This document shows, in pieces, positions 8,573 through 46,081 of a stretch of 64,000 nt of DNA. The position numbers and the translations under genes were made by a program. Origin of the DNA: Chrysoperla carnea (taxonomy: Eukaryota; Arthropoda; Insecta; Neuroptera; Chrysopidae). The notes under the pieces are model-generated. The model saw only the letters and a list, made by a program, of their open reading frames with translations. It made no database searches and had not been told where the DNA came from. Numbering within the stretch: position 1 is the stretch's first letter; each line of letters begins with the position of its first letter. Where the stretch lies: positions 38,466,140 to 38,530,139 of the forward strand of contig NC_058342.1 in the NCBI RefSeq assembly GCF_905475395.1, read 5' to 3'.

Positions 8573-8640
8573 ATTAATGCATCCTTCAAATTTTATTTAT
8601 ATTAGTTGTTTATAGTGTAGAGTGTAAAAATAAGTGCAGC
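8573..8640 (+). mobile_element. MITE-like family B (TTAA-TGCATC), end fragment
   Basis: TTAATGCATCCTTCAAATTT and the following ATTTATATTAGTTGTTTATA match the left end of the complete element in the DCTN5 intron (20997-21512), again preceded by TTAA. The right end was not found, so this is a partial copy. A short hairpin built on AGCTCTTAGGGG follows. Confidence 0.5.
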
Positions 8641-9527
8641 TCTTAGGGGTAGGGGCGTACTTAACCCCTGAGAGCTGGACTGGACTATATTAGACTATAA
8701 ACCTTTCATGTTTATCGCGTTAATCGCTTTAATTTCAAATCTTATCATTTATTCGCGCACATTTTCAAATTTTAACGAGAGATACATTGAAATCGACACG
8801 ACATCAGGACAAAGGCCTATTCTCCAATTTTAGTCGGATAATGTTCATTGATCCAGCATCGTAATGGATTTTCTTGCAATCCTTTAGAATAGAAAAGCCT
8901 TTTAAAAATATGCTTTGTATGTTTTTTTTAAATGATTCCATTTAAAAATTCAATTAACAATATCATTTTTTTGAAACTGTTTCATTTTGAATACCTTTCA
9001 AATTTGATTGAGTGAAGTTTATCTAAGTTTTTATTATTATTTATTTACAAAATCTTCTTTTTTTTTTTTCTTTGTTTTCCTTTTAGAAATGCGTGTGATT
9101 AGGAACTTTTAAATTTACATTTTAGCTTAAACTGTTTAGTTAAAGTTATTTTTTTGCAAATTTTAGATATTTACCTAAATCAAAAATTACACGATTAGTT
9201 CTCATACAGGTCTTAAGCTATGTCCATCGAGTCACCAACACCAACACCCTGTATATTTACACCCAGAAATTTCAAAAAACATAAACACTTCTTAATTTTC
9301 ACGGAAAAGTGTATTACTTGACTCTGTATTACTGAAGTTCAAGTTGAAAATCGCAGTAATTTTGATTTGATAAAACCTTGAATCTCAAAAAATACTCGCA
9401 GTGGATTGATAAGGACACATTTGAGTCCAAGCCCGTACAAAATTTATTTATCATTTGTTGAAAATAATTCCCAAAAACTGAAAAAATTAATTTTTTTAAA
9501 TTAGGATTCATATAGGAACACTAAAGT

Positions 9528-9543
9528 GGGGGGGGGGGGGGGG
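9528..9543 (+). repeat. Homopolymer run of 16 G
   Basis: An uninterrupted run of 16 guanines in AT-rich intergenic DNA. Comparable C runs occur near 16599-16609 and at 33280-33293. Such runs are assembly-sensitive and can form G-quadruplexes. Confidence 0.9.
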
Positions 9544-10523
9544 TAGAGCATCCTGAATACAAGGAGTCCGTATCAATCCACTTGGATATTTTCGACTTTT
9601 TTGAAGTTTGTATCCAATTTTTACTTAGATAATAATAACAAAGAGAAAATTAATTGTGAACAACACAGCTCTAAGCAAACTTTGGTGTTCCAGTTTGTTT
9701 GGTGTTTTGACGATCTGACTTCCATTTTTTGCTCGGAGTAGGATGCTTTTTTGGCTATCTTTGTTTCCCTGTATTATAATTATTGAAGTCAAAGATACCG
9801 TACCAACTTTAAAAAGGTCTGTTTGTGATATTTGGAAATTTGGTGAATTTACAAAAGACTTGATTTGAATTGAATCGAAGAAAAATGGGTAATATTAATT
9901 TGTATCATCTAAAATACATACTCATACATATTTACATTTTTTTTCTTCGAATTTTCGATTTAAATTCGAAACGACAAAATAAAAATAAATAATTTCTATG
10001 AAAAAATATTGTTTTTTGTTTTTGTTTTTTACAAATATTATAAATTATTTTTTACTTTTTAGTCAACATCTTACCAGTTATGTCGAAGAGATCCACCAGA
10101 CAGACCATCAACGTCTTTAAGCCAGATCAATCAGTTATCAGTATTCTGACGTGACATACTGATACTAGTACGTACTAGTATGGCTGGCTTAACACAAGGC
10201 TAAAGCGATTATCTTTCTAACATTCTAGTGTTAGTGTTAGTGTTAGTGATAGTGCTAACTTCGTAGGTCCTAGCACTGTATTAGGTACCATTCTGGCTTA
10301 AAATGGTCTAGTGTATCTCGTATCTCGGTCAACCATAAACATGAGGATATGTTTTCACATTTGAACATGTACATGTGTAGTGTAATGAGGACATATCGAT
10401 ATGTTTATGGAGCGCTTTAAATTTATTATGATATACGTACGATAGCGATAGAATGAATGAATGAATTAGATAGAATACATAACATGATTACTTTAAAGCA
10501 GCATTTTCAAATGCATGTTTTTA

Positions 10524-10546
10524 CAGTCAAAACCCGTTATAACGAC
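10524..10546 (+). repeat. Possible terminal end of a pogo/Tigger-like DNA transposon
   Basis: CAGTCAAAACCCGTTATAAC preceded by TTA resembles pogo/Tc1-superfamily terminal repeats of the CAGTCAAACCCGCTTATAAC type. The partner end was not located; nearby ACGACATTCAAAGC and ACGACATCTACAA suggest a decayed subterminal repeat. Confidence 0.35.
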
Positions 10547-13500
10547 ATTCAAAGCATCTACAACGACATCTACAATTCAATTATAATGTAGATGTCATTA
10601 TATCCTTCGAAAAAGAAAAATGAAAGTTCACCAGTCAGTTCACAAGGACAAGCTAGCACAATATTTGGGTGCGGAGGATGATTTTGATGTGCTAGCCATC
10701 AAATGGGTCTCTGATAATAACTGATGGTTAACTAGAATTTATATTGATGTTGACTCTGGTGGTATTGCATGCAAACGACCCCAGACCCAGACCCAGACTA
10801 CAGATTACAGCTCCAGCTCAGTAAAGTTTGTGTTATAATCGCTTTTTGACTGTTGTATTTTTTTTAAATTTTGGTTTGTAAGTTTATTATTATTATTATT
10901 ATTATTTTTGCTTTTTACAAAATTACTAGTATCACTTTTAAAAATTTTCAACATATGTGTTCAATACATTCACGTTCAAACAGACTCAGATTACAGTGAA
11001 TGAGTTTCAACTCTCATTCTCATTCTCATTCTCATTCTCGCTTCTACAATCAAAATCAAAGTTTTCCCAATTATGAAAGATGAAAAGTTTTTTAAAATAA
11101 ATACTTGATTCTTTTAACTTCGTTAACAAATCATTTGAATATTATTTAAAAATGTTTTGGAACATAAACATAAACATAAACATAATGTAGGTGTAGTTAG
11201 TTCTATTCTTACTAACAAACATCAAATCATCGTTCATCGTTCATCCAAGTTCAAGACAATCATTTTGATTTTGTAATGTGAAACACGGACGGACGCTTCA
11301 CATGATTTTCTCCGCGACCGTTTCTCACTTCTCAACTTAAAATTGGATCACAAAACATTCTTTTTTTAATATTCACAAAATAAAATAAAATAATTATAAT
11401 CATTCTTAATTTTTATATTCAATAATTCAAATAAAAAATTGCGTTCATATTTTCTTGCACATTCAGAAGACAGGCGTTTTTTTGGAAATATTTTTGACCT
11501 ATCAACAGTATCGTTTGGAAATTAAGTAAACGGATCGTGAATTATATTCTGTTAATAAATGTATAAATATAAATAGCCATTCATTATTCATGCAGAATAG
11601 CCCACGAAAATCAAAGTTTTTCTACTTAAAATATTCAAATGAAGCTTTTTCATCAGAATCTTTTTCATGTTCCAATATATCCTGTGATGTTTCTAATAAC
11701 AATAAATGATGAAGATTAACCCAAAAATCATTTGAAAATCTGATGGTTTTTGGTTTTTGGGTGAATCTGTACACTGTACACTGTACACTGTACACTGGTA
11801 CACTGTACAAAGAACTTTAGTGACAAGTGATAATCAAATCAATCAAATAAATAATATAAAAATAAAAATAATAAATAGATAATTATGTAACATAATATAA
11901 TAAAATATAATATGTAAATATTCTTGTAAATCATTCTTTAAAACAATTTAAATTCTTTAAAACAAGGTTGTAAGGTTGTAAGGTTGATCTGGGTTTAAAT
12001 CAAAATAATGCAAGTAATTAAACCCCTTCACTACCTACCTCCCTTTTGATAATCATTAAATCACTGTTTGTTCGATAATTAAATATTATGCATTACATTT
12101 ACTTCAAGTAAATAACTAAAAAGAAGATTCTTAGCCAATTCCAATTCAATCAATAATCTTTACTCATACTCATACTCATACTCATCAATAGTTTTACGTC
12201 TACGCACGTAACGTTTAAAAGGAGAACAAACAATTCAAGTGGAATTACTACATGATCTATGATCTGTCTCTTTTTACAAGTTTTCGTTGAGTTGACTTGA
12301 ATCCGCTTTTTAATTATAAAATTTTTCAAAATAAATAAATATAAAAAATAAAAATAAAAAAATAATAAAAAAGAAAAGAAAACAAATTTTTCAATCCATA
12401 ATTTTTAAAGTCCTCATACACGTTCGGCCCCCTTCAAATCAATCAATTTGTTTATTATGCATTCAAAGCTGTATACTAAAATCTGAATAATTTAGAATTT
12501 TTAACGATTTCGAAAACTGTCTCGAAATAGTTTATAGATCTATAGGTCTATAGTCGCATCAAGTTAGGTACAATTATGCAATAGGTTTACTGAGCTCTTT
12601 GGGTTATGGCCAAAAGTTCAGGAAATCTATGCCAATTTTTAGCTTTTTAGTTCAATAATGCCATTTTGTAGAATAAAAATTTTCACATTTCCAATCTTTC
12701 GCATTTAATTATTATTAATATATATATTCGAGCCATACATACTATTATATGTATTTTTGTTTTCCGCCCTCTAGAAGTGAAAATTATGAATCGGAAAAAA
12801 CTATATATACACCTACCTACACATCGATTGAAAATTTTACACTCTACATCTTTGTATGTAGTTAGTTACTAGAGTATTTTTAAAATAAAATACACAGTAT
12901 TTGAATAGTCTACGGAAAACTACGGCAAACGCGGAAAATTTTATTTAAAAATCAAATGTGATCGATTGAGACATATACAGATCAAAATATACAGAGATCG
13001 ATTTTAAGTTGAACAACTAAAATTTTATCAAAAGTATATTTTCACTAAATGCAGTTTTTAAGAAAAATTCAAAAACCAACCAAAACCACGCAAAATTGTA
13101 AGATTTATTTTTACAAATCGTTCGGAAATTTTGCGCTCGGTTTATTTTTTATCTAAAAAGTATAGTTATCGAGTAAATAGAAAAAAAATTGTGCAAAAAC
13201 ATGGAAAAGTGTGAATTTTTCCTAAAATCACCTTTTTTTCTGCACATATGAAAATTTTGATCAAAAACTAAAGTTTGGCATAGATGGCATTGCTGAACCA
13301 AAAAACTTGAGTAAATTTCACCTAACTTGATAGGACTGTGATTGGTTATCTCATAATCGTTGTTCCTTCAGCGTGATTGTTGCCTAGCGAATGGCTACTT
13401 TTGATTTTAATCGACAACATTTTGAGGGGGTTCACAGGAAGGACAAAATAAAAAATTTCGTTCTCGATAATTATTGAAAAAAAAAAAAAAATGTTTAATG

Positions 13501-13763
13501 TCTTAGAATTAGCCATTCATGAACGATTTGAATTAGTTACGTACTGTCAATATGTAGATGTCTTTAAGAAGACATGATGCGACGCGAAGCATTTCGTTGC
13601 GTTGCGTTGCGTTACCGTTATAGTTATTGTTATAGTTATCGTTATCGTTATCGTTATAAAGTTTGTATGGTTTGTGTTTGAAGTGGTTTTACTATATTTA
13701 AGTAATATAATTTAGATAATAATATACGTAATATTATTAGCAATATCATTCATAACAATTGGG

Positions 13764-13802
13764 TGTAAGTGCGGATTATTCGTTGATAAATCCGCACTTA
13801 CA
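13764..13802 (-). promoter_or_regulatory. Perfect 14-bp hairpin just after the stop codon of the Ser-rich gene
   Basis: TGTAAGTGCGGATT (13764-13777) is the exact reverse complement of AATCCGCACTTACA (13789-13802), with an 11-nt loop. On the minus strand the stem begins 8 nt after the TAA stop (13813-13811) of the upstream gene, so it would fold at the very start of the 3' UTR. The reading frame after the stop stays open for 32 sense codons. Possible roles are stop-codon readthrough stimulation, mRNA stability control or masking of the GTAAGT donor-like word in the stem; none is proven. Confidence 0.7.
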
Positions 13803-13810
13803 AATTCGAA

Positions 13811-16800
13811 TTATGGACGCATTTGAGAAGCCCGCAGCTGAGAAGTATTGTTATTGTTGTTGTTGTGGTTGACGGTGCGCGATCGATTCAAATGGTTCAA
13901 GTTGTTCAAACATTGTTTTAAAGTGCTGTTCATTTGGAAGTCTTGCAACAAGTTCGGTGTGATCGCGTTCCCAACTTTCGAACGTGCATGCGGTTTTGAA
14001 ACTAATTGTCTGAATTGTAAACCATTCAATTGTGGTAAGTTGCTCAATTGAACAGAGCAGCGAGAGTCGTCGGGAAGGGCAGCGCTCTCAATGTCATAGA
14101 GTCCACTAAACATATTTACAAAGGTAAACTCTTCATCGGTTTCATGCACAACACATTTCATGCACTCGGGCGTTTGAGGCGTTCGTGGTGCACTTTCTTC
14201 TTGTTCGATATCAAAATCGAATGTTGCTAGTTTCGTTAACTTCCAATCGTTATCATCATCCAAATCGTTCGTCGCTGTCCGTTCGTCGTAGATCCCTGGA
14301 TCGGCTTTGATACGATAGAATGGTTTCGTCGCTTCGATTTCGTAAATCCCACAAGGTAACGGTTCAGGCGCATCAATTGTTTCCTCTAATTTCATTATAA
14401 ATAAATTCGAAGTTCGATCTTCGTTCGATCTGGATTCAAATGGCGAATATTTAAACTTAACTATTTTCTGTTTGTTCTGTTCTAAACTATCCTCGTCACC
14501 ATAAATAATATCCGTTTCCGTTATAAATGGATCGTATTTAACGAATTTCTTCGCTGGTTCAACATCTTCGTGGTGTGTAAACAAACTTGGATGTTTTAAT
14601 TTTAATTTATCTATACTGAGTTCATCCACTGAGATATTTATTAAACTGATCGATTCACTTACAGGGCCTTTACTCTGACCCTGACCCTGACTCTGACCTA
14701 TTGAATGACCCGGACTACTTAGAGGCGTTTGCGTTTGTTCAACTTTGATTTGTGTGTTTTCTAAGAACGTCGGTTTAACGTCGCTGTCATCGTCGGGCAG
14801 AGCTGGTTCATCCGTTGGTTTTGTTGGTGATCCAGCTGTTTCTAATAATGTCTCAACGACCGTTGAGACAGCATCCTGTAGAATTTCAACAGTGGGAGTA
14901 CTTCCTTTGAGCGCAATTAATTCAGTTCGTGTTCGGCATGCAGTTGGTTGCTCAACTAGACCTGCTAGACCAGCTAGACCTGATACTGAACTAGATTCAG
15001 TAACAGTTACAGTTATATTATCACAGGGAGATTGTTTATTTTCTTGAGGTAGATTGATTGTGTCGCGAGTGTCACGACTACGACTTAATCGTGGATTAAC
15101 ATTAACATTAACATTAACGATTGTTGTTTTACGTTCTCGTTCTCGTTCTCGTTCCCGTTCCACGACATGTCCTGAACTATTCGTGTTCGTGTTCGTGTTT
15201 ATGTTCGTATTCGTATTCGTCGTACTACTTGTACTGCTAGTTGAACTAGTTGTTCGTTTACTAGTTGAACTTGAACTTAAAGATGAAGTCGAACTTAAAG
15301 ATGGTGACGGTGACGGATGATTGGATGATGCTTGAAAACGTTTTTTACTAGATGTAGATGTAGACGTAGACGTAGATGACTTCTCTAACTTGTCCGATGA
15401 AGATGAGTTTAGTGTTGATGTTGGTGTTGGTATTGTCTGTTGAATATCAGTAATTGTTGTATCTAAATCTTGGTTGTAACTACTCGATGATGCCGTCGAA
15501 GGGGAATGACTTGAGAACGCACTATCATGTTCACTTTCTGAATAATTGATTAAGGGTCGTTTTCGTGATGATTTCGCTAGAGATGATGTCCCAGAACCGG
15601 TGTAACTAGGTATTTCTAAACATGCTATTACATTGTTGTAACAATTAACAGACGCATCGTTCAGTGTGGACGATGTCGATGAACTAGACGAAGAACTGGA
15701 CGATGAACTGGAACTGGAGAATGAAATCGATGAAGAGGTTGAGTTGTATTTAGTTGCTGTTGGTCGTATTATACACGATAATGCTGAGAATGATTCTAAT
15801 ATTGGTATCGTGCCAAATATATTTAGATCTGAGTATGTTGATGTTGATGTTGACTGTGACTGTTCTTTGTGATCTCCTACATGCACATCTAAACGCGCCT
15901 CTAAAACCAAACAAACACAACAAATTTATTTATTATAGTATGTAATGTACCTTTATCTACCTACTACACTACACTACAAATAAATATCTAAAGTACAATT
16001 AATGAATGCATCTTTAAAATTTTATTTACTTATATTATGTAGGTACTTTTATTAGTTATTTATATTATGTAGGTACTCTTGGTGGTTGGGAGGATACTTA
16101 AGTAGCGATTATAATCACTTTTTTTATAAATTACATAAAACTATCAATCAATTATGAATTTTTAAAAATTATCTAGTTCTAAAAGTTCTAGAGATTTTAA
16201 AATGCCAATTTTAAAATGAAATGTTTTGCTTATTCAATCAAATGAAAAATTATCCATCTTGTAAACCGTTACAGATACAACAAAACTTTAAATGTAAGAG
16301 TTATTCCTTATAAAAAAATTAACAACTTTTATTTGAAGCATTCTTTCGTAAACATGATTGTTTAGACGAGAGGGCACAACTTAGGCAAAAATTTTCACGT
16401 CCATTTTCTCCAAAACTATAAAAAAGTGTGTTATTTTAATTTCAGGTTAACTTAAATTAATGGTTAAATGAGCGGTAAGGTGGGCTGAAAAGTTGACATC
16501 CTAAAAGACACATCCTATACTAAACTGTACTGTACTCAAATTTAACATCATAAAAACCGTCCATAAATTGTATTTTAAGAAGCATGAAACGGATTTTTTA
16601 ACACCCCCCCCCCATCTACATCATCCCAAGTTTACCTTCGATAAAATGCATAAATCTATATTTTTAGGGTATATGACTTAAAATTTTATACAAAATGAAC
16701 CGATTTTATCCATTCACGAATACAACAGCTAAAAAACTTCAGGTCGCTATTGTTTTTCAGTTTTGGAATACCGTATAAATGGACGTTAATCGCGAAACAA

Positions 16801-17524
16801 GAAAACGAAGGTTTTTTTCTATTCATATTTCTAATCGTTACAAATTTGGAAGTAAAAAAGCATAAATTACGAAACTATAAAATGAACAAAAACAAGGGGC
16901 TAGCATTAAAATTAATTATAACCTTCAAGTGAAATTGTAAAAAAATTTAGCATTCTCGAAAAATAATTCGAATCTTTATATTTTTTGGTCATATTCGTTG
17001 AAATTTAAAATAAAAAGTCGAAGTTAAAATAAAAAAAAAAAAAAAAAAACATTGATTTTAAAAATTTCAAATTTGGTTTTAGATTTAGATAAATTGTAGG
17101 TTAAAATTAAAATGAGCTTCTGAGAGAGACAGATGATAAATTTAAAAAAAAAAAGGATTTCAAAACAATTTGTATTTATGTAGGACATGCACATGCTTAG
17201 CAAATAAAATTTAAAGCCCCCAAAACAAAATGTAAACATTGGATTCTAAGTTTAAATGAATAAACTCAAAAAATTCGATAACATTTCTAAAAACAAAAAA
17301 CAGGCAAACAATCGAATTGAAAAAAAAAAAAAAAAACAGGTATGGCATTAATTAAGGATGAGAAGATAAAGATATTTACCTTTTTTACAAGGAGCTGTTG
17401 TTTTTGTAGTAATTTTATGATCGCTATCTCGTAAATATAAAAACCAAGATTCATTTAAACAATGAACTCCCATATCCGAATGATCGGATTCAGCATTTAA
17501 TTCAAAATCAAAATCGATCTCCAT
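13811..17524 (-). CDS. Unrecognised Ser-rich low-complexity protein, two exons
   Basis: Two minus-strand exons, 17524-17380 and 15900-13811, join through a GT-AG intron in phase 1 (G|AG = Glu) and give 744 residues. The ATG at 17524 has an AAT-ATGG context; the frame stays open upstream, so an earlier start or upstream exon is possible. I do not recognise the family and see no zinc finger, bZIP, bHLH, kinase or membrane segment. The N-terminus is acidic (MEIDFDFELNAESDHSDMG). Residues about 100-330 are dominated by Ser, Ser-Thr, Asn-Thr and Glu-Arg repeats and an NVNV repeat. The C-terminal half is ordered-looking and acidic with aromatic clusters (KFVKYDPFITETDIIYGDED, CGIYEIEATKPFYRIKADPG, MFSGLYDIES), followed by a poly-Asn run near residue 727. 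The composition is like that of an insect transcriptional regulator with acidic activation segments; this is inference. The long frame, intron and non-repetitive C-terminal half argue for a real gene. Confidence 0.75.
15901..17379. other. Intron of the Ser-rich gene
   Basis: AT-rich intron of about 1.5 kb containing a diverged copy of MITE-like family B (from about 15998), a C run near 16599-16609 and A runs near 17031-17050 and 17321-17336. No coding potential recognised. Confidence 0.6.
15998..16440 (+). mobile_element. MITE-like family B, diverged copy in the intron of the Ser-rich gene
   Basis: Starts with TTAATGAATGCATCTTTAAA and continues with internal blocks shared with 20997-21512 (GCTTATTCAATCAAATGAAA, AAATTATCCATCTTGTAAAC, TTCCTTATAAAAAAATT) and with the dispersed repeats at 2280 and 48125. 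The right inverted terminus was not identified. Confidence 0.55.
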
Positions 17525-18380
17525 ATTTAAATCTGCCACCTGATTTTGAGTGTTATTATCGTGAATCGTCGTCGTGTTTCTGAATCTGAATCTGTATCTG
17601 TATACTGTACCGTGTATCTGTATCTGTATCTGTATCTTGAGAATCGTGTATAACCAATAAAAAGTTATTTTGATTAGCTAGCAAACCCACCAAAAGAATA
17701 AAAACAATGCAATGATTTAATTTAGAATTAGAATTGATGGTATTAGAAAGAAACTAGATGATCTCATGTCATGATTGATATTCAAGAACTTGTATTTTTT
17801 ATTTTAAGAACTTGTGTTGCACTTAACACAACACAACACAAAACAGTTACACTTCAACTTCAACTTGAAGCACTTAGGTAAGCACTTTGTTGCTTTTGCT
17901 GGTATTTTTCTTATTGCTTGATACATTCATCACTTCTTTTAAGTTTCAATTATAATGGAAGTATTAATTTTAAATCGTAATCGCATCTTTATTAATTAAT
18001 GTATTAAATCTCGTTTCTTTTTCTTAATACAAAATAAAATCCAATCGAATCCAATCCAAATGACAGTTTGTTCTTGTTCTCACTCTCAGAGTCAGATTCA
18101 CGTTAAGGTTGGACTAACTTACAACACACTCGTAGTGTACGTAGTGTACTAGTGTACTAGTGTAGTACTGTACTGTAGTGACTGTGACTGTGACAGTCAA
18201 TCCTCAGTCAGTAGTCAGTAATGAAGTAGTCATACACAGCACACCATAGACAGAGATAATGAATGTATGCGTTCCTTCTCACTCTCAGTCTTCTAGTTTA
18301 CAATACTGAATACTAAATACTGAATACAAACCATAGACATATAACAATAACATATTGACTGAAGATCTATATAGCATTAA

Positions 18381-18915
18381 GATATTATGTCATGATGACG
18401 CTTGACACTGCCTTTGAACGACAAATTAGTATTTCATCTAGATGAAAAAAATTGAACTATGTGCAGCGTCAAATTGTAAAAAGGAGCGTCAAAAGACAAA
18501 AAACAAAGAAGTTTATTAATACATAAGATCATTTGTAATAAGACATTGACACATGGTAATGATAAACAACTACATCCAGAATGGGTACTGAATATCATTA
18601 ATGGCAATCAATTGAAAATAAAATATTTTTTAAATGAAACCATTTTAGTTTTATTAAAACATTAAAAAATATTTATTATAAATTTATATATTTAATACTC
18701 TCAAAATTAATCCTGATAATAAAAACAGATTATGCTTTTGATGATAAAAAGGCAATTTATGCCGTGCTGCCATCTGGATGGAAAACAACGTCAGCAATGC
18801 AAATAGTAAAAAGTCAAACATTTTTCCATTCAGATGGCAGCACGGCCTAAATTGACCACATGACCTAATTTAACGCTCAAACTCGGCGTCAAACGTCATC
18901 ATGAAAATACACCTT
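18381..18915. mobile_element. MITE-like family A, two-ended copy of about 535 bp
   Basis: The left end (ATGTCATGATGACGCTTGAC, then CTTTGAACGACAAATTA) is the imperfect reverse complement of the right end (TAATTTAACGCTCAAACTCG, then CGTCAAACGTCATCATGAAA). The inverted repeats are about 40 bp. No transposase frame is inside, so it is non-autonomous. It also carries an internal near-perfect inverted repeat at 18761-18846. Similar ends occur at 7097 and 20075. Confidence 0.7.
18761..18846. repeat. Internal 21-bp inverted repeat within the family A element
   Basis: GCCGTGCTGCCATCTGGATG (18761-18780, plus one G) pairs with CATTCAGATGGCAGCACGGC (18827-18846, preceded by C) with a single mismatch, separated by about 44 nt. 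The same CTGTGCTGCCATCTGGGTG word recurs in the element at 20075-20330. Confidence 0.8.
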
Positions 18916-19723
18916 AAATCAGCGCCTCAGTGTGAGTAATTGGGAACTAAAAAAACCATTCTGATTCAAGGCATATGTTATGTGTTCTATTTCACATCAT
19001 TTGGTGGCGCTAGTATGTATCTCAAACATATCATAAATTCAACTTCAAATTCAGACCAATTTCAATACATGGGATCCTCTATCTATATGTTATATATATT
19101 TCTATATTCTATGATACAAACACATTGTACAATTCTTATTCATGTATGTCTGTCTCTGTCATGTCTGTAGTAGTCTGTAGAGTGTAGTCTACACTGCAAA
19201 CCATCTACGATCTACCACAAGATCAGCTGTCTCTGTTACAGTCAAACATCGCTATATTCTACCCACCTTTACTCTAGATATAGTCAAACTCCTATATTAC
19301 AATAAATTATTTACACCATCACCTCATCTATTAATTATTATTCTATTATTATACTCTGTATATATGAAATATATATCAAGGTGTACTAAGTTTAGTCCCA
19401 AGTTTGTAACTAAAGCTTAAATTAATTGATGATACGAACAAAATTTTTGTATAGGTGTTTATAAAATCATCTAACGTACTATAGAGCATTTATTTGTTAA
19501 ATTCGATTACTAAGATATATAGTGTCCATATTAGGTACTTACCTCATAATTCAAGTGTAGGTACAGTAGTTTATCTGGGCACATCACATCACATACACCA
19601 GTCATCAGTATTGGTCTACATTTATATCAACAGATGTGGACACTATACTACGACTACCTACATTAATGCACATAAGATGTCGCGTCCTACATCAGTCTAC
19701 ATTTATATTGATAGATGTAGTAT

Positions 19724-19844
19724 ACTCACTGTCAAAAAAAATGCCACAGTTAAAACATTCTAAGCGTACTCATCATATGTTATGCTATAATAGTAAACCT
19801 TAGAATGTTTTAAAACGAGCATTTTTTGTGACATTGAGTGTACC
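19724..19844. mobile_element. Short Tc1/mariner-like MITE flanked by TA
   Basis: ACTCACTGTCAAAAAAAATG with TTAAAACATTCTAAG on the left is inverted on the right as CTTAGAATGTTTTAAAACGA with CATTTTTTGTGACATTGAGT; TA dinucleotides flank both sides. The element is about 120 bp with a ~34-nt loop. CACTCAATGTCA-like ends and TA flanks fit the Tc1/mariner superfamily. No coding capacity. Confidence 0.7.
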
Positions 19845-20074
19845 TATAACTAAAATTCGTAAATTATCGTTCAATTGCTTTCCTTTGATACTTCTTTGGT
19901 TCTTTGGCTTAGGTTACAGTTTCTATCAATTGTTCGGAGAATATTTCACCTCGATTTCGTTGTTTATCACTGCCTGCTAATATACGACATGCTGTTAACA
20001 ATATATGATGTGCGGGTTTCTTCGTCTACTTAAAATATGGGATCATTATAAAAAGTAAAACGTTCTTCATGACT

Positions 20075-23880: not shown

Positions 23881-24167
23881 TGATAAGCATTTAATGAAAT
23901 AGTTTTGGGTATAAAATTAATAAACAAATCAATAAACATTATAAACAAAATATTTTGATTTATTTTTATTTAATTGATTTTATTTCATTAATTAATCAAT
24001 TAGTTATGATTATGTAAAAATAAAACTCTAAAACTGTCATTTTGACTAATTAATAAATTTTTATTTGATTATTTGTAGTAAGGAAAACATTATATAGTAA
24101 AGTATGAATTTTAAAAATTGTTTTAATAAAAAAATTTAAAGATTACAAAAAAAAAATACATCTAAAT

Positions 24168-24600
24168 GCCATCTATGGTAAACATATTGAACGAACTTTT
24201 AATTTCGACGGCAGTGCCATCTATGGTAAACTTGTTGAACTAACTTTTAATTTCGACGGCAGTGCCATCTATGGTAAACTTGTTGAACTAACTTTTAATT
24301 TCTACGGCAGTGCCATCTATGGTAAACTTGTTGAACTAACTTTTAATTTCGACGGCAGTGCCATCTATGGTAAACTTGTTGAACTAACTTTTAATTTCGA
24401 TGGCAGTGCCATCTATGGTAAACTTGTTGAACTAACTTTTAATTTCGCCGGCAGTGCCATCTATGGTAAACTTGTTGAACTAACTTTTAATTTTGACGGC
24501 AGTGCCATCTATGGTAAACTTGTTGAACTAACTTTTAATTTCGACGGCAGTGCCATCTATGACAAAATTATTGAACTAACATTAATTTCGATGGTGGTGC
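24168..24600 (+). repeat. Minisatellite, about nine copies of a 48-bp unit
   Basis: The word GCCATCTATGGTAAAC recurs at 24168, 24216, 24264, 24312, 24360, 24408, 24456 and 24504, with a diverged copy at 24552: an exact 48-bp period. Because 48 is a multiple of 3, the plus-strand frame beginning with GCC stays open through the array and would encode a 16-residue repeat (AIYGKLVELTFNFDGS). No ATG precedes it in frame, so coding is doubtful. Confidence 0.9.
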
Positions 24601-33293: not shown

Positions 33294-36200
33294 ACTTTAT
33301 TTTAGTTTTTTATATATTCTGGTCTGGTCTGGTATGGTATCTTGAGAACCAATCATCAACTGACCACAATCACCAACATTTGTACATTCATTTGTTAAAA
33401 AGGGAATGACAAGACATCTTAGTCCATTGCTCCCAAAATATCTTAGCCCAAAGATGAAAATCCAATTCATTTCACAAATAAATCTAAAGAATCAGCCAAA
33501 AGTTTTATCAATGAGTTAGGAATTAGTCAAGCTTTATGAATGAGTTGGGATTAAAGTAGTTGATTTTTGGGGAAACTCTGTTTTACTACATCAAAAAGTA
33601 CAGTTTTCTAATTGGATCTTGAAGTGTAACATCCTCTCCTATAATAAAAAAAAAACTTTTGGATAGGTCATTACTTATTGATTGGACAAATATTGTGAAA
33701 ATAGAATGTTTCCACAAAATCAATTTAATTCAATCGAAATAATCAATAATCAGTCATCTTTAGGTGTTGGAATTTAAAAAAATGAATATCATAGATTTGT
33801 TCAAAGGGGACAGAGAACAGAGAACAGAGAACAGAAAACTATTAAAATTTAATTGTACAGGGTGTTTAAAACACTCTATTATTGTAGATACACAAAAAAT
33901 GTAAGGCATGGGTTCAGATTTTAAGTACAACTTTAAAAAAACAATTGCAATAATATTTAAAAAATTTCTTAATGTGTTCGAACTACAATCCTATTTTATG
34001 GCAGCCTTTATGCACCGATTTATGAGAGGCAGATGCACAAATAGTTACGTCCAAATTTATAGACTTTCGTCGATAAATACCAGTTCAGGAATTTTGAAAT
34101 TGATCCCGTGTCCTGTTAAATAAGAGCGTCGAATTAAATAAGATTGTTACTAGTTACTGGTCACTGATCACAGATCACTAGACCAGTTTTAAAGTTAGGA
34201 ATGCAGAAGCTGCTCAAATAGTAATAGATATTTTGTTTCTTCCACAAATGGCAATAATAGATAGCTTAGCTTAGTTTAGCTTAGCTTAGTTTAGCTTAGC
34301 TTAGCTTATACCTCAAGGTTTTTTGACCTACACCACATCACATCACAATTGTTCATTTTTAACGCTTGCTCAATAGATTTAATATTTTCTGCATTTCCTA
34401 AGAAAAAGCTTAAGCTAACAAATGAAGTGGGGGGATACGGATACAATTAAATATCAACAAGAATTGACTGGCGATGGTTTGAGCTCGAATGGTTTGACCA
34501 TATCGGACTCTGACATTGGTCTGGGTTAAACCCGAAAACACATAAAATCCGAAGTACGTGTTGACATCAAATGGGTATAGGTGATCGGTTCAATTCATAC
34601 TGATTGGTCACATCGTCACGTAACAATTTTAATGGTAACTCATGCAAATTAAATTTGAACGTAAAGTTTTTTTTGTAATAGTTTTTGGATTTGCTATTAA
34701 TTGACAAACAAAAATTTACAAAATTCTTTAACATTAGGCAGTACAGTGTACAGTGTACAGTGTCTTCTTCATATTCTTTGGAATCGTGAATCGTGAATAA
34801 AATCGATTCCAAAAAAAAAACCTCATGAATTACACATACATTCCAAAATAAAACAAAACAAAACAAAAATACAAATTTTAATCACTTTTATTAAATCTAC
34901 GTTTCGAAATCGGTGTTCCTTATTCGTATTTCGTAGAAAAACTTCCAATATACGCTTATCGTGTACTTAACAAATTTTATGGTTCGAATTGAGATAACTC
35001 ATTCAGTGGCGAATTTAAGCAATCGAAAAAGGTGCAGTTGCTCCCCCTAGCATGGTCCTTATTTCATCTATGTGTGTGGTTGTGTGTGTGACATTTCAAT
35101 TTGATCTTGTCTTGTGAGTGCAAATTAAATCATTAGGGGCTTATTTGGTGGCTTTGGTAACTAGAACACTATTCAAAATAATTGTTATTCGAAGAAAAAT
35201 AAAAGGCCGGTAGTGTCAAAAGATCAAAATCAATTTTTAGCGTAAAAAATGAAGCGTTTTATAGGAATTGAATATTTTTCTTAAATCCGCCACTGAAAAC
35301 ACTACAAATTAAAAAAATGTATAAAGCAATAACAACAATTTTTTATAAATTTTTTAAAATCATTTTTCAATATTTAAATTAAATCGATCGGATTTTATTA
35401 AAAAAATCAGGTCACTAATTTCAAACAAACAATAGTTGTTATTCTTAACAACAACACAGGCAGCAATTCTCAATTTTTTTTCCATGGTTTTTGACTCTAG
35501 ACATGACTCTTCATTTTCTGTATGTTCGGGCTTCTAAAAAGAAGTTTAAAATGTACAAATAAAATTCATTAATTCATTCGCCAATTTAGAGAGCCAATCT
35601 TTCTTTTTTCAACAAACAATTTTTGTGATTCATCACGAATTCAAAGATTCATCCAAATTGATTCATTTTTCTCAATTACCGACCCCAAAGTTATTTTCTG
35701 AGTGAAGAATAAGTTGTCTAAATATTAGTATTTTTCATTTTCGCGTTCTATTTTACTATTCTTATAATAAATATAATAAATATAATTTTATTCAGTATTG
35801 ACAACATTTTCCGAACATTCTGAAAATTGTAAGGGAGTTTTCATTTAAAATGATAGAACTTTAAACTTTAATTAAACAACTTGTGAATGAAATTTTTAAT
35901 TGAAGGAGTATTTAAGACACAGCTTCGATCAAACAAGGGGTTTATACATTCGGTTTAATATCATAGATGGCATTTTTTGTGCTTACTTTTAAGGGCTTAA
36001 AATGTTTGAAGTTATACTACTTTAGGCGCCTTATGAACAAATGATGAGAGTGCATTTTTATGATACACCACACGAGCAAAAACTATGAAGTTAGTTGATA
36101 AAACGAATTGTCACTCATAAGAGACAAGGATGGATAGATAATGGATGTATGAAGTGTGATTTATGAACACAATCGATAAATAATAGGTGTTTTAAAATAT

Positions 36201-36466
36201 TATTTATAAATTATTATATTTGTTATGATAAATATTAAAGAAATATAAGTTGTAAGGTGCGCGCGTTACAATACACACATCCTTTTGTTGTTTTTTAAGT
36301 TATTTAATTTAAGTTTAAAGTTCAAGATCATTTTGAATCGAATGGAATGGATGGATATCTTGGATGTCAAATCAAATGTCTAGTTCGAGTCAGAGTCAGA
36401 GTCAGAATCAACTTAGAATTTAATAAAACTTTCACCTAAAATAAAATCTTCCTTCCATAATTTAGA

Positions 36467-36501
<35 letters not shown>

Positions 36502-39276
36502 TTAATAATAATATTAATTTGATTGTTTTAAAATCACTCTATTTATGAATCCTAATTGGTTTTGAATTCAGATCTAGGATCTAATTGATCAATGATCCAT
36601 AAGCTGCATTCAAAACGTAGCTAGGTATTAATCATTTTACACTACAGAGTGCACTGCAGTACAGAGTGTACTACAGTACAGACAGTATTTTAGAATAAAT
36701 ATTTGTTATTAGTCAAACTATTTTACCAACATTTATAAAAATAGAAAAACAACACCATTTTAGATTTTAAATAAAACTATATTTTATTTATTTGATTTAT
36801 GTTCTGTTCTGTTCATATTAATTAATTAATATTCATTCAATACAATACATTGTAACATTTTTATTTTAAATTCTTATACTACTTAGACTGCTATTTGTTT
36901 TCAATAAAAACAATTATCTTTTCAAAAATCTTTTTATTTTGATCCGTTGCCTTCCTCACAAAACTTCAGATATCATCATAAGCCAAATCAGCTTAAGAAC
37001 TTGCATTACAAATAAAGTACACATAAATTAAGGAGTTGTAGTTGTAGTTCTGTATTATATACTCTGCTCTTCACATCAGCACATTCACACATTGACATTT
37101 ATTCATTTTTTATGTTAAGACTCGCGTCAAAATAAACTCAACGCTCGACTCAATGTACCTACAACAGACTAGACTGATTCAATTCAATTATATTATTATT
37201 ATTTGTGGACACATCGTACATCGTACATCGATTTGTTTATGCCACATTTACAGGATCGATCGATGTTTCAACCATCGCAACCATAATAGTTTATCAAATT
37301 TTACTTGTCTTCTGTCTTCTCTATAGAATACAAAATCTTCATCAAAGACTCCGTGACAGCGAAAGTGATATGAACTAATTAACTTCAATATGTAGTTCTC
37401 GTGTCATGTCATCCTTTGCGCACGTATCATACAAATTCACTCATCATTTCTAAAGAAGTATAGCTTCAAAAACGTATGAATAATTCAAGACATTAATAAA
37501 ACATTTTGTTTCTATTGCGATTATAACCGCAATTCAAACAGTTCAGTTCAAACAGTTATAGTTAGTCTGTAATATAATCTCTAAGGAATTTTAAGTCAAT
37601 TTACTCTTAACTTTTGATTTATAAATTCGTAAATACTCGGGGCCGCACATTTTAGTAAGTAAGTAAGCTCTCACAGTGACAGCAGTACTCGGTACAGTAG
37701 GTGTGCCTCTGAATTTGGTATTTAAATCGAGTGGTAACTGAATAAGAAATTAAATTCAATTAGGACCATTTAAAAGAATTGAAGCACAATTATTGATCAC
37801 TATACTGACTGACTTGAATACTGATCAATTACGTGCGCGTTTGATTAATGATTATTGGACATTAGCAGATGTGAGATGATTCATGGATGTGAGATGTGAG
37901 ATGCCAGATGCGCTACCTACTACAACTACTTTGATATTTACGACTACGACAGACATGAGACAATTATCATTTCAGATAGGATAACAGTGTTTATATAAGT
38001 ATAGGTATTATATTTATATGGATCTCAATCAAGTTGATGGTTCGACTTCGTTTAGATTGATTGATTGATTGATTGATTTAATTAGGTCAATATAATTAAC
38101 ACGTTTAATAAATCATTAATTATTTATCAAATTTATATTTTGTTTAGTTTAGTTTAGTTTAGTTTAGTACCTACTGTACCTATAACTATAACCTATAACA
38201 AATGTTGTCAGTCAGCACATGCGCACTTACAACTATACTATCTCTACTATAGACTTGTATTATTCAATTCACATTAGATATCATTTTTGAAAAACTATCC
38301 TAGAAATATATGGCCCATAGGGAAAAAATTTTTGATCATCAGGACGCAGTGAATTTAAAAAAAATGACTCCAGTAATCCAAAATCCTTAGAGTACGGTAA
38401 GTTAGTTAGAGTACGATGGCACGAAATTTGAAAAATGTGAGCCGAAGGAGTTTTTGTTAAAATTTTAATTATCAGTTAAGATTTCAAAACACAGCAGAGT
38501 CTACTTAAGGTATTCTGTTCAAATAGGCTATCACCTTTTTCGGTACCAAACCAATTATAGAACCTCCTAAAGAATATATTGTTTGGATATTTACATAGAA
38601 AAGTAATTGACAAAATTTACTAAATATGTATTATATTTTAAATCGAAATTTAGACAAAGTTCATTTCGAAATAAAAGCTAATCGTTTCACGTATTGTATC
38701 ATGTAACTAAAAAATACATCTAGGCCTCATTAAAGTCATATTTCTCCCTCATTACATTCAAGTCATATTAAAAGATGCTTTTTATTAAAAATGTTATTAA
38801 ATTTCCTATTTTAGTAACAGTTTTTGAAAATTTACAATATATTCATAAAAGAGTGGTAAAGAGAGGAACCGGAAAGTTGGCAATTTACACACTGATTCTC
38901 AAACCCGTAGCTCCATTTAGGGAGACTGCACTGCAGTTTTAAGGTTTAAAGCCATAAAACATCGAAAAAGCTGATTGTCCCCTGTAAATCCGCTTTAAAT
39001 TAGTCCCCCTTCCTTTTTAAATTAACATTGATCCGCATAAAAAACATAGGGTCAAGGGTCAAGGGTGTAGAATACGGATTTATAACACACTTCTATTCCT
39101 CCCCGACCACTTCTGATACAATACATAAGTCTATATTTTCGGGTAAAATATGACTAAAAATGGTGGTATCCTAAAAATGATTGATTGAAATTATGAATGA
39201 ATTGTAAAAGGTTGTATTTTGCAAAGACATTTTGTAGTATCAGTAGTCAGTACTGAGTCTGAGTACAGTATACAGT

Positions 39277-39298
39277 GTGTACAGTGTACACTGTACAC
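39277..39298. repeat. 22-bp perfect palindrome within a GTACA/GTATAC tract
   Basis: The 22 bases from GTGTACAGTG to CACTGTACAC read identically on both strands. Flanking sequence (CAGTATACAGT repeats to about 39331) extends the self-complementarity. Similar GTACACT tandem tracts occur near 11770 and 34742. Confidence 0.85.
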
Positions 39299-39356
39299 AA
39301 TACATTATACAGTATACAGTATACAGTGTATACATACAATTACAATGACATGACAT

Positions 39357-39370
39357 GTATGTACTATGTA

Positions 39371-39401
<31 letters not shown>

Positions 39402-39403
39402 GT
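39357..39403 (+). repeat. (GTATGT)n microsatellite
   Basis: Six- to seven-fold repetition of GTATGT in intergenic DNA. Confidence 0.85.
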
Positions 39404-39535
39404 GGTATTCGTTTGTTTTTTAGCCCTTTCTGTTTAACTAACATGATATGAGAGAGATCAACAATTACAACACCATATTTTAACATTTTGTTGGGGGTTT
39501 TTTTTTTCAAGATGCGTAGTTCGCATTCGTAGTAC

Positions 39536-39623
39536 AACACAACACAACTACTACAACTACAACTACAACTACAACTACAACTACAACTACAACTACAAAC
39601 ACAAACACAAACACAAACACAAA
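39536..39623 (+). repeat. (ACAACT)n then (ACAAAC)n microsatellite
   Basis: Compound hexanucleotide array. The minus-strand frame across it encodes only Cys/Ser/Val dipeptides and is not a gene. Confidence 0.85.
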
Positions 39624-42600
39624 CTGTAAACAAAATAAACGATATAGACGATTAATTTAAATAAATAATATCAATTCATTAATTATAATTAGTTTAATTA
39701 GTGACCAATTAACAAGTCACTCTTTTGATTTTGTTTCAAAAATTACTAAGTTTTGTTTTTAGTTCAATTTAGTGTTTACTAATGCAGTACAGTGCAGTGC
39801 AGTGTAGTGCAGTGCAGTGCAGTGTTAGTCTGTCTAGTTCTAGTATTACAAATAACTATTAACTAGCTCAACTAAATCAAATTTTTTTAGAAAATTTTAT
39901 ATAAAAAAGAAAATACATTTTATTAGAGTGTCTGTGTCTGAAAGATCACGATCACGTTTAGGTGCAAATCCGAGCACAGACCACAGACAATCGTATTTCG
40001 TAGGTTATGTGAGATTATGGAAAATTTAAATTTGAATTGTAAGTTTTGAAATGCGTAAATTATATGTGTTTTATATTGCGTATGATTGCAATGTTGCGTA
40101 TTAAATTTAACTATTATCATTCATATCGAACAAATCAAATAAATATGGCGGGTTTTTTTTATTTCTAGAAATTGTCAACGTTTTTACAAATATTTTTATT
40201 TTAGAGATATATTTTTGTCAAAAATTATTTTTAATTGTTTTACCCGCCTTATTTTTTAACTAGTAGCTGTAGTATTTTTTATTTTGCTACTGTCATGAGT
40301 CGCTTAGAATCTATTACACGCGCTACTATTTATCGGGGCATTCAGTCAAAAAATTACATTATATTTTAACCAAATATATAAATATAAGTGTTATTTGACC
40401 GTCCATTTAATAATTAATAATCAAGGGGAGTTGTAGCCTGTATTCTATGCCGAAACAAGCATATTGGATGGTATCGAGAAAATGGAACATTTGTCTTTGG
40501 ATCTAGAGTCGTCAGAATCTTCGCATTTGAGATTTGTACAAATATTTGACTACACTCGATTCTATACTAAATCGATTATAGTATTTTTTTCAGTAATTTT
40601 ATTTCATTAGGAAGACAATGGAAAAAATACTTAATAAAACCAATTTTGCTCGTTGAGGCCATGGCCACAAGAGTCCTGTCAATAATAGTTTATGAATATT
40701 GAATGTATTGAGTAACTGAATCGTCTGATTGTGTTGAGTAACAACCTTAGACTGATCTGGGATCTAGGCACCAGGTCCAGATCATAAACACAGCTAGATC
40801 ATTTAACTGTGTTAAGTTGAAACTCACTAGAATACAGTTAATTTCACTTTTAAGGCCTGCATGGAGGACAATGAAATCTCCAAACATTTGCACCTGCAGA
40901 TAATCAGAATGTTTAGATCTAAAACTTTAAACCTATAAATCCTGAGAGCAATGCCGACGAACAAGAAGTGGGCTTTTTGCACAGTCTCTAACTTTGTCAG
41001 AATTATATAATTTCATCTGCTTATCCGAGTGACAAGCTCTTCTCAAAGAAGGCACTAAAGATTTTTTGGTTTAAGTGCGGTGCTAGAGACCATCTTACGG
41101 TATGCTTCTTTGATTCTTATTAGTTAAATGATGCCGCGTGTAACAAACTTAAATGTTTTCATACAAATACGCATGCGTTTATTTTGATTTTGTGTGTCGT
41201 TCTTTTATTTGAGTAGGTATTTAAAAATGGACTTTAAAAATTTAAATTTTATATGATGCTTGTTAACACACAAAAGTTAAGTTTTTATTGGTTAGCAAAT
41301 AAAAATTTTGGTTGAAAACTACTGGTACTAGTACTAGAGTAGCAGTAGCAGTAGCAGTAGCAGTAGCTATGATTTATAGTAAGAGTAAGAGTAAGAGTAA
41401 GACGAATAGAATAATATTTATGAACGTTTTATAGTAAAAATTTACTATCAATTAAACAAAGATGGATAAATGGTTGGGCTACATCATGCATAAACTGAAT
41501 AAAGATAGAAGATGTTGACAGAAGCGATCCGATACGTTACGATACGATACGATATCATGATATGATACGTCGCTTTGTCGAGCTCTTACCGTAGCTGTAG
41601 TCTTAGTCTTTCACTATTTGCATTTATTATGAATTGAATGAGATAGAATGAGAACACTACTATTACTATGTGTGAGTGAGTAATGCTCTTTTATAAAAGT
41701 ATGTATACACTTACCAGTCACATCAGTGCCAGATTTATATCATCCTTTCATTTTTCATTTTTTACTGAAAAAGTCATCAACTTAGCTCTCACTGACATTT
41801 CATTCTGAAAGATAAATTCTAGAGAGCTAGAGAAAGAGACTATAGAACAAGGGCGTCGTCTGCTAATTTATCAGAGTGGTGGGGGCTAGTTGACAGATTT
41901 GAGGAATTCACGATTAGTAAGGAATAGCACGATTATACATCTTCAAATAAATTAGTGGCATTTGATTGATTGTTTGCAGTCTTTAAAGGAAGGAATTTTG
42001 TAGCGATGCGATGATTTAAATAATGAACTGAACTGATATTTGTTTTATTCACTTGTTAAATAAAATAAAATAAATAACATACATATTCCATTCCATTCAA
42101 TTAATATTTATTTTGATAAAAACTTGTCAAGTTTGGTTTATTTGATTTTTATATCAAAATAATAAACTGGTAACAATAATTCTTGTTATGCAATTCATAA
42201 ATAAGTTTTTTTAATATTTTTGTAATTAAATAAGAAACTTAATATTGATTGATATCAATTAAAAGAACCAATTGAATAAATATTATACTTTTGACTATAG
42301 GTACATAATTTATATTTGTATCCGGTGATTTTGGGATATACGGCATATTAATTGTTATAGAATTCAATGACGGATGATCGCTATAACTGACAATGACAAG
42401 TCAGTTGATCGATCCTATGATGTTATAATTCATGATTGGTGGTTTATAAACGATGTCGATGTCGATATAAATGTATATAACTTTGAATACGTAAAGTTGT
42501 GTTTAAACGTTGAATAGTGGTAGTGTTAATGTGGCTTTAGTGTGTTATTAATATAGTAAGTAGATAGAGTAGACCCAGAGCGATAGAAGTAGAAGTAGAA

Positions 42601-43568
42601 GTAAAAATAGAAGTAGAATAGCCACTAGAATGATGTTGTAGTGTGTGTCTCTGTCTGGCTCTGGACTTAAGTGTTGTCTGTTACTGTTAGTGGTAGTGGT
42701 AGTGTCAATGGTACGTACTATGGTATGGTAGTGGTAGTGGTACTAATAGTAATAACTTCGTATTAGAACTCTATACTCGTTTGTCGCTAGTGTATGATGT
42801 CGATGCGATGTCTGTACTCTGTTTCACTACTCAAGACTCAACTCAACTCACTCTAGTACACAGTACACTCTCATAGTCTCATTGCTGTATGTATATCGTA
42901 ATATCGTTATCGTATTCGTATTCGTATTCGTATAGTTGTGTTGTATCAGTATCTTGTATAGTTCTAGATGTTTACATTTTAAGTGTAAATGTGATTGTGT
43001 TGTGGTGTTTTATTTAGTGGCATGCTTCATCTATTTACTATTATATTATTATTTATTAGTGAAGTTCAATCAAAATCAATCCGACAACAACAATTTTCAT
43101 ATTAAAATGTATGTTACGTTATGTTATTTTACTTTACTTTACTTACTGTATTATTTAAAACTTATTTCAAACACAAATCAATCAAACTTCATTTGTTTTC
43201 TTTCTACAAATTGAACTCTAAATCTAAAAACTAAACGCAACGAGATCAATCGTCAGTCCTTCAAATCATATCATATTTATTTGTTTTTATTTAGATTTAG
43301 ATTTAGACACTCAAATCTATATTCTTATTCTTATTCTTATTCTAATTCTAATCTTTTATTTATAGTTTTTTATTTCTAACAAACTCATCATGTGCATTTT
43401 TTTTTACAAAATTCTAAATTGTGTTTTTTTTTTGTTTTTAATGCAGTGTGCAGTGTTTTTATTTTTATATTTTTGTGTATCTCGAATCTGCTTTTGTTTT
43501 GAAGTCGTCAATTGATATTTTGAGTATGTGTTTGTAATGTGTATATATTTTTAAAAATCTAACCTTAA

Positions 43569-43571
<3 letters not shown>

Positions 43572-43602
<31 letters not shown>
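43572..43602 (+). repeat. (TA)n microsatellite
   Basis: About fifteen TA dinucleotides, with further TA-rich sequence to 43660. Confidence 0.9.
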
Positions 43603-43610
<8 letters not shown>

Positions 43611-44731
43611 TAGTATATATTTATATATATCTCATAATAAATATGTATATATATATATATAATTTTTTTTTTGAGAGTAGATTTTTAGTAGTAAAACCCC
43701 ATTTTTCGCACACGTTTTAGAAGGTTCATTCATGAAATTCGGTTGGTGTGGCTGACTTTATAAAAACGAAAAGTAAATTTTACGAATGTTGAAAATAAAT
43801 GTTGTTTTGAATTTTTGTGATTTTTTTTTTTTGAATGCAAAATTTTTTGTTTTTTTCATATCTGTCACATTTTAGTGCGTGTGTCTCTGTAAGCAGTTTG
43901 TGGGGATGTGTGATTATAAAATCTCATGTACGTATTTTTTTAATTCAGTGTTTTTTCAGGATATCTATCTGAAATCCTTTTTGTGTTTGTTAAATTTCCC
44001 GAGAGGAATTGATACAATTTTTGAAATAAATATGAATGTTTTTTCAATAGTAAAAATTTTCACCCAAATTTAGCCCCCCGAAGAAATACAAAATTATCAA
44101 ATATAGTCGAGTCAGTAAAGAATTAAAATTGTAATTTTTTATGTTACTACAAAAATCATTGGTATCATTTTTGAGTCATAAATTACTTTTTTAATAAACG
44201 AAAATAACAATAAACTTTTATTTTTTATTTTGCATACACTTTTCAAAAGAAAAAGTTGTAAGTAATTTTTTTCAAGTACAACTTAAATTTTTCTTCTTCT
44301 ATTATTTTCGAAAATAATCGTTTTTTAAGAATGCCAATTTTGAATGATACAGTTTTTACTGTGAAAAGTGAAAGTTAGGTCGTTGTCGGTCAATCCAGAA
44401 CCATTTAGATTGAATTAGATTAGATTTGATTTGAATTGAGTTGGGAGTAACAGTACCTAATTCTTATAAAATATTTTGTACGGCGACCAGTTCGATCTTT
44501 TGTTTCAAAGATGTTTTGCATGGTCTACAGTCTAGACTCTAGATGCTCTAGAAGCAATATAGCACTAATAAATTCTCTTCATCAATTCAAAATCTGCAGA
44601 CATCGCGATCGTTCACGTGCAAACAGTGAGTTAGCTTTTGTAACAAACGCTCTGAAACCTTTTCCATAAAATAACTTGTGAGGTGTTTCAGGCAAGTTAT
44701 TCATGTAAAATCCATTCTACCCTTTTTTAGT

Positions 44732-44920
44732 TTAAATTGTGCTTTTCGGTAGTCCATAAAATGGTTCATGGCCGTTTAACGATGTAAATGTATTTTGGCT
44801 AATTTCTTCCTTCCTATCGATTCCTAAGTGTCCGAGCACCCAATCAAAGTTCAAGATCCAGTGTTCCAGTTTGTTTTTCGAGAAACAAGAGTGTAATCTC
44901 GAAAAAAAATGAAACCCCAA
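44732..44920 (-). pseudogene. Decayed RNase H fragment of a non-LTR (Jockey-like) retrotransposon
   Basis: A minus-strand open segment of about 62 residues contains FDWVLGHLGIDRKEEISQN and GHEPFYGLPKS. These resemble the WVPGHxGIxGNExAD motif and the following GPEPFFGLxxS segment of RNase H domains in arthropod Jockey-type retrotransposons. The catalytic-region Asn-Glu and the following Ala-Asp are altered (RKEEIS), and no reverse transcriptase remains recognisable upstream, so this is a dead remnant. The identification rests on this short stretch only. Confidence 0.5.
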
Positions 44921-46081
44921 ACTCTTACCTTTTTTCTTCCAACTTTGTCTTTTGATTCTAAAACTTTTCTTGCTAGACGTATCATTCGTTGGAAAATCGG
45001 TTACTTGACTTGCCTTATGAAAACCTCATCATATTCGATTCTGTTTTGAATATAGGTTGCCATTATCAATCTTGATAAAAGTAGGAAGATTCTTTAAAAC
45101 ATCCAAGTTTTTTAAAAGTATGAGAAACGTTTCAGATAAATATTTAATTTAAAAAAAAAAAAAAAAATTGAATTTTTCTGCTTTTGCTATAAAAACCCCA
45201 TCAAAATTGATTTTATTTTTTAATACATGTTGTGTTTAGTACATGTCACTCTTTATCGAAGCATGAAGAATTGTTTTTGTTTGGAAGGTTTGAAAGTTTT
45301 GTATAAAACTTCTGACCTTACAAAAATTGAATTCTTGTGATGGATTTTTTTGAATAAATTTTTACAGAATTGGTTTTGAATTAATTATGCTTTTTTTTCT
45401 TTCAGAAAAATAATTTCGAAGATAAAGAAAAAATGTGAACAACTACTGTTCAGTGTCCAGTGTTTAAGTGTCCAGGACTAGAATAGTTTGTATGGGTGGT
45501 ACTTCAGTGGTGTCCACGAACCAGACCTATTATGCAATTATTCGCCGCAGCAGTTCTAAATGAAAATGCGGTTATTTGTACAGTTCTAGGTGATTCGAAT
45601 AGTCGTTGGTCTAATGGACATAGAAATTTTTGTGTTAAAAATGTAAAAAGAACGTTGAACTATTGTTATGAACTTTTTACGAAATATTTGTAATAGACCC
45701 CCAAAACATCGGGAGAAAAAAAACAATTGGTGGTGAGAAACGTTCAAAAAACAAACGTACGCGCAACGCAACGCAACGCACGCGAGTGTTTTTACAAAAC
45801 CTTTTTCGTTTATAAACAATGGTATGACAATACGCGAATTTTGAGAGTGTGGTCCAAAGATATTTTAAACTCAAAATAAATAACAATTTGAAAATTTTTA
45901 GTTTTTTTTGTTTAGTTTTTTTGTTTTTGTTTGTTTTTTTCTTTTGGGTAGGAGTAGATTTGGGTAGTGGGAGGGTTAGCAAAGTTAGCGAACGAACAAA
46001 ATAAGTCGTTTTGTTTTTGATTCAATGAAAATAAAAGAAATTCGTTGAGTGCTTTGAATTTGTTCCGTTTGATGTTTGAAA

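Follow-up and report, generated by a model that had tools for sequence, protein, structure and literature searches.

A perfect hairpin lies directly behind the UAA stop of a Ser/Thr-rich coding sequence in the 64,000-nt stretch of Chrysoperla carnea DNA analyzed here (the window). Such a hairpin exceeds what chance gives, the stop stands in a non-leaky context, and the open frame behind it is of chance length. The hairpin is described here as statistically striking and as sitting at a suggestive position. The best explanation, to which we give about an even chance, is that template switching placed a hairpin in the proximal 3' untranslated region (UTR) and that translation ends normally at the UAA; we infer both the template-switch origin and the absence of readthrough. 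Ordinary termination, with a hairpin that was made by mutation or that acts in the 3' UTR, is likelier than programmed readthrough.

The first-pass annotation had described a stem of 14 perfectly matched base pairs that starts 8 nt past the TAA and closes an 11-nt loop, a frame that stays open for 32 codons up to the next TAA, and a GTAAGT inside the stem. All of these were borne out by the coordinates given in the table. The 3' arm is the exact reverse complement of the 5' arm, which also holds the GTAAGT. Counting the T of the TAA as +1, the stem-loop spans +12 to +50, measuring 39 nt in total and being free of bulges. Each arm is G or C at 6 of its 14 positions and is thus richer than the window, which has 31% G+C overall. 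A second inverted repeat, this one imperfect (19-nt arms, 79% complementary, 5 nt apart), is found at 13707-13749 and overlaps the second in-frame stop.

Table. Positions of the stop, the hairpin and the surrounding gene features in the window
Feature	Position	Strand	Detail
Putative coding exon 1	17380..17524	minus	ATG 17524 to donor AAG/GTAAAT; read by eye
Putative coding exon 2, ending in TAA	13811..15900	minus	after acceptor TTTTAG/AG
First stop codon TAA	13811..13813	minus	context CGTCCA TAA TTCGAA
Stop-to-stem spacer, 8 nt	13803..13810 (read 13810-13803)	minus	TTCGAATT
Perfect 14-bp stem with 11-nt loop	13764..13802	minus	-20.2 kcal/mol alone
5' arm of the stem	13802-13789	minus	TGTAAGTGCGGATT
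Loop, 11 nt	13788-13778	minus	
3' arm of the stem	13777-13764	minus	AATCCGCACTTACA
In-frame open stretch, 32 codons	13715..13810	minus	FEFVSADLSTNNPHLHPIVMNDIANNITYIII
Second in-frame stop TAA	13712..13714	minus	
AATAAA polyadenylation-signal matches	13104..13146 (starts 13146, 13109)	minus	consensus match only
Further polyadenylation-signal matches	ATTAAA 13499, 13411, 12709; AATAAA 12945	minus	consensus match only; searched 13811-12600

In our by-eye gene model, the host gene has two coding exons. Exon 2 lies in a 704-amino-acid stop-to-stop open reading frame (ORF; 15925-13811, minus), and the phase between the exons (G/AG) fits, giving a spliced product of about 744 residues. The encoded protein is rich in serine and threonine and carries acidic stretches. 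A Pfam search yielded no match for the 704-amino-acid ORF at E values up to 1 and none for the exon-1 frame at E values up to 0.01, and a PDB sequence search with the ORF yielded none at E values up to 1; the protein is therefore left unnamed. Pfam holds the Headcase domains, and the empty result for the 704-amino-acid frame therefore also means that no Headcase domain was matched in it. Comparing the 3'-terminal 300 codons of the ORF with bacterial and archaeal contigs, a set holding no animal genomes, gave 226 pattern matches of which none was confirmed, as expected for an animal gene. Since the AATAAA matches starting at 13146 and 13109 lie downstream of the stem, the stem would stay within the 3' UTR.

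On the minus strand, the neighboring genes are represented by an exon with a GH18 match and another with a weak SPA-domain match, and on the plus strand by DCTN5, a PDZ protein and a receptor with furin-like and kinase domains (all by Pfam). Such a gene content would suit an insect chromosome. The SPA-domain neighbor is presumably DENND6-like, and with the Pfam domains as a guide, we take the names DENND6, Patj and insulin receptor to apply among these neighbors. The plus strand also carries a tandem array at 24167-24591, with 8.9 copies of a 48-bp unit at 95% matches, which stays open as a repeated SAIYGKLVELTFNFDG-like peptide in a 204-amino-acid ORF.

The 14-bp stem behind the TAA is not a chance product. 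When stems are required to be perfect over 14 bp or more and to enclose a loop of 3 to 40 nt, the window holds three. In 100 order-1 Markov copies of it, built in 2-kb blocks, their number averaged 0.09 and never exceeded 2; under an order-3 null (60 copies), it averaged 0.08 and never exceeded 1. Only the stem at 13764-13802 has at least 6 G/C among these three, and none of the 100 order-1 copies contains one of this kind. Folding pointed in the same direction: the 141-nt stretch around the stem reached -35.2 kcal/mol (z = -5.95), a value as low being found in none of 200 shuffles. The 60 nt past the stop fold at -20.9 kcal/mol, which is reached by 28 of the 8842 stop trinucleotides on both strands; these are trinucleotides in any frame rather than known gene stops, and the 28 include the site itself, neighboring stops that share one hairpin, and the same stem approached from the opposite strand (13753, plus). 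The flanks do not lengthen the stem, as 386 of 500 flank shuffles, which preserve single-base composition only, folded as low or lower. For this reason, we rejected an extended hairpin that would bury the stop codon, seen in the 141-nt fold as a pairing of CAUAAU with GUUAUG. Elsewhere, at 8613-8697 on both strands, the sequence following stop trinucleotides is predicted to fold more strongly than at any other place in the window, reaching -34.5 kcal/mol; no gene was recognized there, and the repeat finder shows no short-loop inverted repeat.

Perfect stems are also found in other parts of the window. Lowering the threshold to 12 bp gave 12 perfect stems, compared to a mean of 0.95 and a maximum of 4 in 60 order-3 copies. 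Eight of the 12 are devoid of G/C, and four of these eight belong to a single AT repeat at 43573-43603, whose stems are included in the observed counts for both nulls; the general excess of hairpins is therefore weaker evidence than the raw count suggests. Restricting the count to those among the 12 that have 4 or more G/C left two, at 13764-13802 and 49682-49713, against 0.05 expected. The latter (plus strand) pairs 13 bp without a mismatch around a 6-nt loop and lies within the open frame 49369-49794, which resembles an insulin-receptor ectodomain exon. The longest perfect stem in the window with a loop of at most 40 nt, at 19750-19813, has 15 bp, which include some G/C, and a 34-nt loop, and lies upstream of the frames matching DCTN5, at a place where no exon was recognized. 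Judging from the stems at 49682-49713 and 19750-19813, such structures therefore also arise where readthrough is irrelevant.

Template switching during replication is reported to create perfect stems in a single event (PMC8794818). At our locus, one such event would have made a local inverted repeat near the start of the 3' UTR, the arms would be perfect because the hairpin is young and not because a readthrough signal has been maintained, and ribosomes would terminate ordinarily at the UAA. In favor of this reading count the excess of perfect short-loop stems, seen also away from this stop, the chance-level open frame, the non-leaky UAA context and the flanks that do not lengthen the stem. 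Counting against this origin, the excess of hairpins consists mostly of A/T stems, the 6 G/C of the stem exceed those of the other 11 stems, its spacing matches known readthrough stimulation, and the extension behind the stop scores nearer to coding sequence than most noncoding stretches do.

The 32-codon open frame is no longer than chance gives. At least 32 open codons trail 462 of the 4508 TAA trinucleotides on both strands (10.2%), and the same holds for 10.6% of 20,000 Markov copies of the 3' flank. To score the coding-likeness of the extension, a codon log-odds model was trained on 11 stretches of exon from the window; two of these contained one stop codon, which was left unscored. At -0.004 per codon, the extension scored above the average of open noncoding stretches following a TAA (-0.22), and 4.3% of 185 such stretches reached its score; they overlap one another, and the noncoding set is assumed rather than annotated, with possible exons in its region 33500-49000. 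Among windows of the training exons, which represent conserved exons, the average was +0.21, and 4.4% were as low as the extension. The coding-likeness is thus ambiguous, falling between coding and noncoding, and the score may be partly due to the composition of the stem itself. Because the own exon of the Ser-rich gene averages just -0.05, the model discriminates poorly for this gene. The frame continues past the second TAA for a further 54 codons without a stop (13711-13550, minus). The noncoding-like score of this stretch, -0.24, leans toward noncoding because most of the stretch was part of the noncoding training set. It also contains a 12-bp tandem repeat (13611-13658), and given the score and the repeat, we hold a second readthrough segment there to be of low probability.

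The first-pass annotation had likened the UAA and its stem to an arrangement that drives readthrough. In programmed readthrough, the stem at the mRNA entry site would slow termination and a near-cognate tRNA would be accepted at a low rate, a mechanism that we regard as unlikely here; equally unlikely is its product, a protein extended by 33 residues, of which one would be inserted at the stop and 32 would come from the open frame. The geometry proposed for this arrangement stood: a stable stem-loop is present within about 60 nt past the stop at a permissive spacing, starting at +12, and its span is comparable to the one predicted in Drosophila drifter/vvl (dfr), +9 to +59 (PMC13170385). Other fly stem-loops are reported to raise readthrough in six of six cases, in a construct with the dfr UAG and its +4 to +9 block (PMC13170385), and for headcase, 20% readthrough of a UAA has been reported from tracheal cells of the larva (PMC2754532). 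The codon score of the extension, which few noncoding stretches match, also speaks for readthrough. Against readthrough count the non-leaky stop context and the chance-level length of the open frame. Stop codons are reported to leak in the order UGA > UAG > UAA, UAA being the most effective terminator, and altering the +4 to +9 block lowered readthrough in dfr (PMC13170385); instead of a leaky stop or a leaky block, the sequence here reads UAA UUCGAA, which differs from the CAAUCA of dfr. A published screen is described as selecting stem-loops of at least 35 nt with loops of 3 to 10 nt and bulges of at most 2 nt, and the hairpin, while long enough and bulge-free, falls outside it by its 11-nt loop. 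Furthermore, the extension scores no higher than the lowest few percent of the conserved-exon windows.

Base rates in flies also enter this comparison. In D. melanogaster, 1012 genes are reported to pass a stem-loop screen of the first 60 nt, but only 50 of them overlap evidence from conserved extensions or ribosome profiling, which therefore sets a prior of some percent for readthrough. We take the strong stem to increase this prior and the UAA context to reduce it. From the effects of the dfr stem and the six fly stem-loops, the stem at 13764-13802 would probably help readthrough if it were placed behind a leaky stop. For the UAA as it stands, a headcase-like case, in which the stem would overcome the tightest stop and a poor +4 to +9 block and yield a regulated, short C-terminal extension, seems a little more doubtful than readthrough as such, and we keep the readthrough reading overall within this low range.

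A 3' UTR control element, with the hairpin binding an RNA-binding protein and tuning mRNA stability, localization or translation while termination is unchanged, is possible, although we consider it rather improbable. The hairpin is strong, is formed on the gene's own strand and lies directly past the stop, and all six polyadenylation-signal matches in 13811-12600 are downstream of it. Nevertheless, in 13500-14200 no Rfam 15 family attained its gathering score, the better of the two matches obtained (MIR8706) having 17.8 bits against the 95 required, and no known motif was recognized by eye in the hairpin loop. With a single 14-bp stem and a sub-threshold Rfam match, a microRNA precursor is likewise held low. 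Inverted repeats of this sort are typical leftovers of mobile elements, and the 39-bp repeat with its comparatively G/C-rich arms could be a remnant or solo end of such an element, or could represent a palindromic repeat with dispersed copies. This origin is very unlikely, given that seven matches to the arm were found in the window at up to 3 mismatches, two being the arms themselves, against 5.42 expected, and that no direct target-site duplication was seen by eye. We give even less credit to a splice donor (TTT/GTAAGT) concealed in the stem, which would serve a 3' UTR or alternative intron. The GTAAGT is one of two matches to GT(A/G)AG, by consensus only, on the minus strand between 15909 and 12600, but no downstream coding exon was recognized among frames of at least 80 amino acids in 9000-20000 and of at least 110 amino acids in the window, a threshold below which short exons are possible. 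A donor that would excise the stop was ruled out, because it lies behind the TAA and cannot remove it.

Controlled readthrough is reported as experimentally shown for a handful of Drosophila genes, five of which are named in PMC13170385. Readthrough has been inferred to be abundant in most of the insects examined, Tribolium castaneum and Apis mellifera being given as exceptions. A natural UAA followed by a perfect and correctly spaced stem would offer a clean test of whether an efficient terminator can be overridden by a stem alone. Should the hairpin be neutral, it would illustrate how strong hairpins can be put at regulatory positions by single mutation events, and it would call for caution with stem-loop screens on one genome.

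Like the template-switch hairpins described in PMC8794818, the one behind the TAA has perfect reverse-complement arms and is explicable by one mutation event; those hairpins were inferred from phylogenies, whereas ours is seen in a single genome. Similarly to the locus studied here, dfr has a stable stem-loop several nucleotides past its stop and an open frame behind it. In dfr, deleting +12 to +57, shifting the stem by 3 to 9 nt or destabilizing it is reported to lower readthrough, while a stabilized stem boosts it 2- to 3-fold (PMC13170385). However, dfr carries UAG-CAAUCA in place of UAA-UUCGAA, which is combined here with an 11-nt loop and a 32-codon extension. According to the same source, the dfr stem-loop is fully conserved up to +53 in 29 Drosophila species and two other dipterans, and its extension is conserved coding sequence (PMC13170385); the extension described here is known from one genome. 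The second system, Drosophila headcase, shares with our locus both the UAA stop and a stem-loop behind it, but its much larger readthrough product (120 kDa) is described as function-tested and regulated, compared to the 32 codons predicted here (PMC2754532, PMC3609751, PMC8417969). Headcase is itself reported as a UAA exception to the rule that readthrough occurs at leaky stops (PMC2754532).
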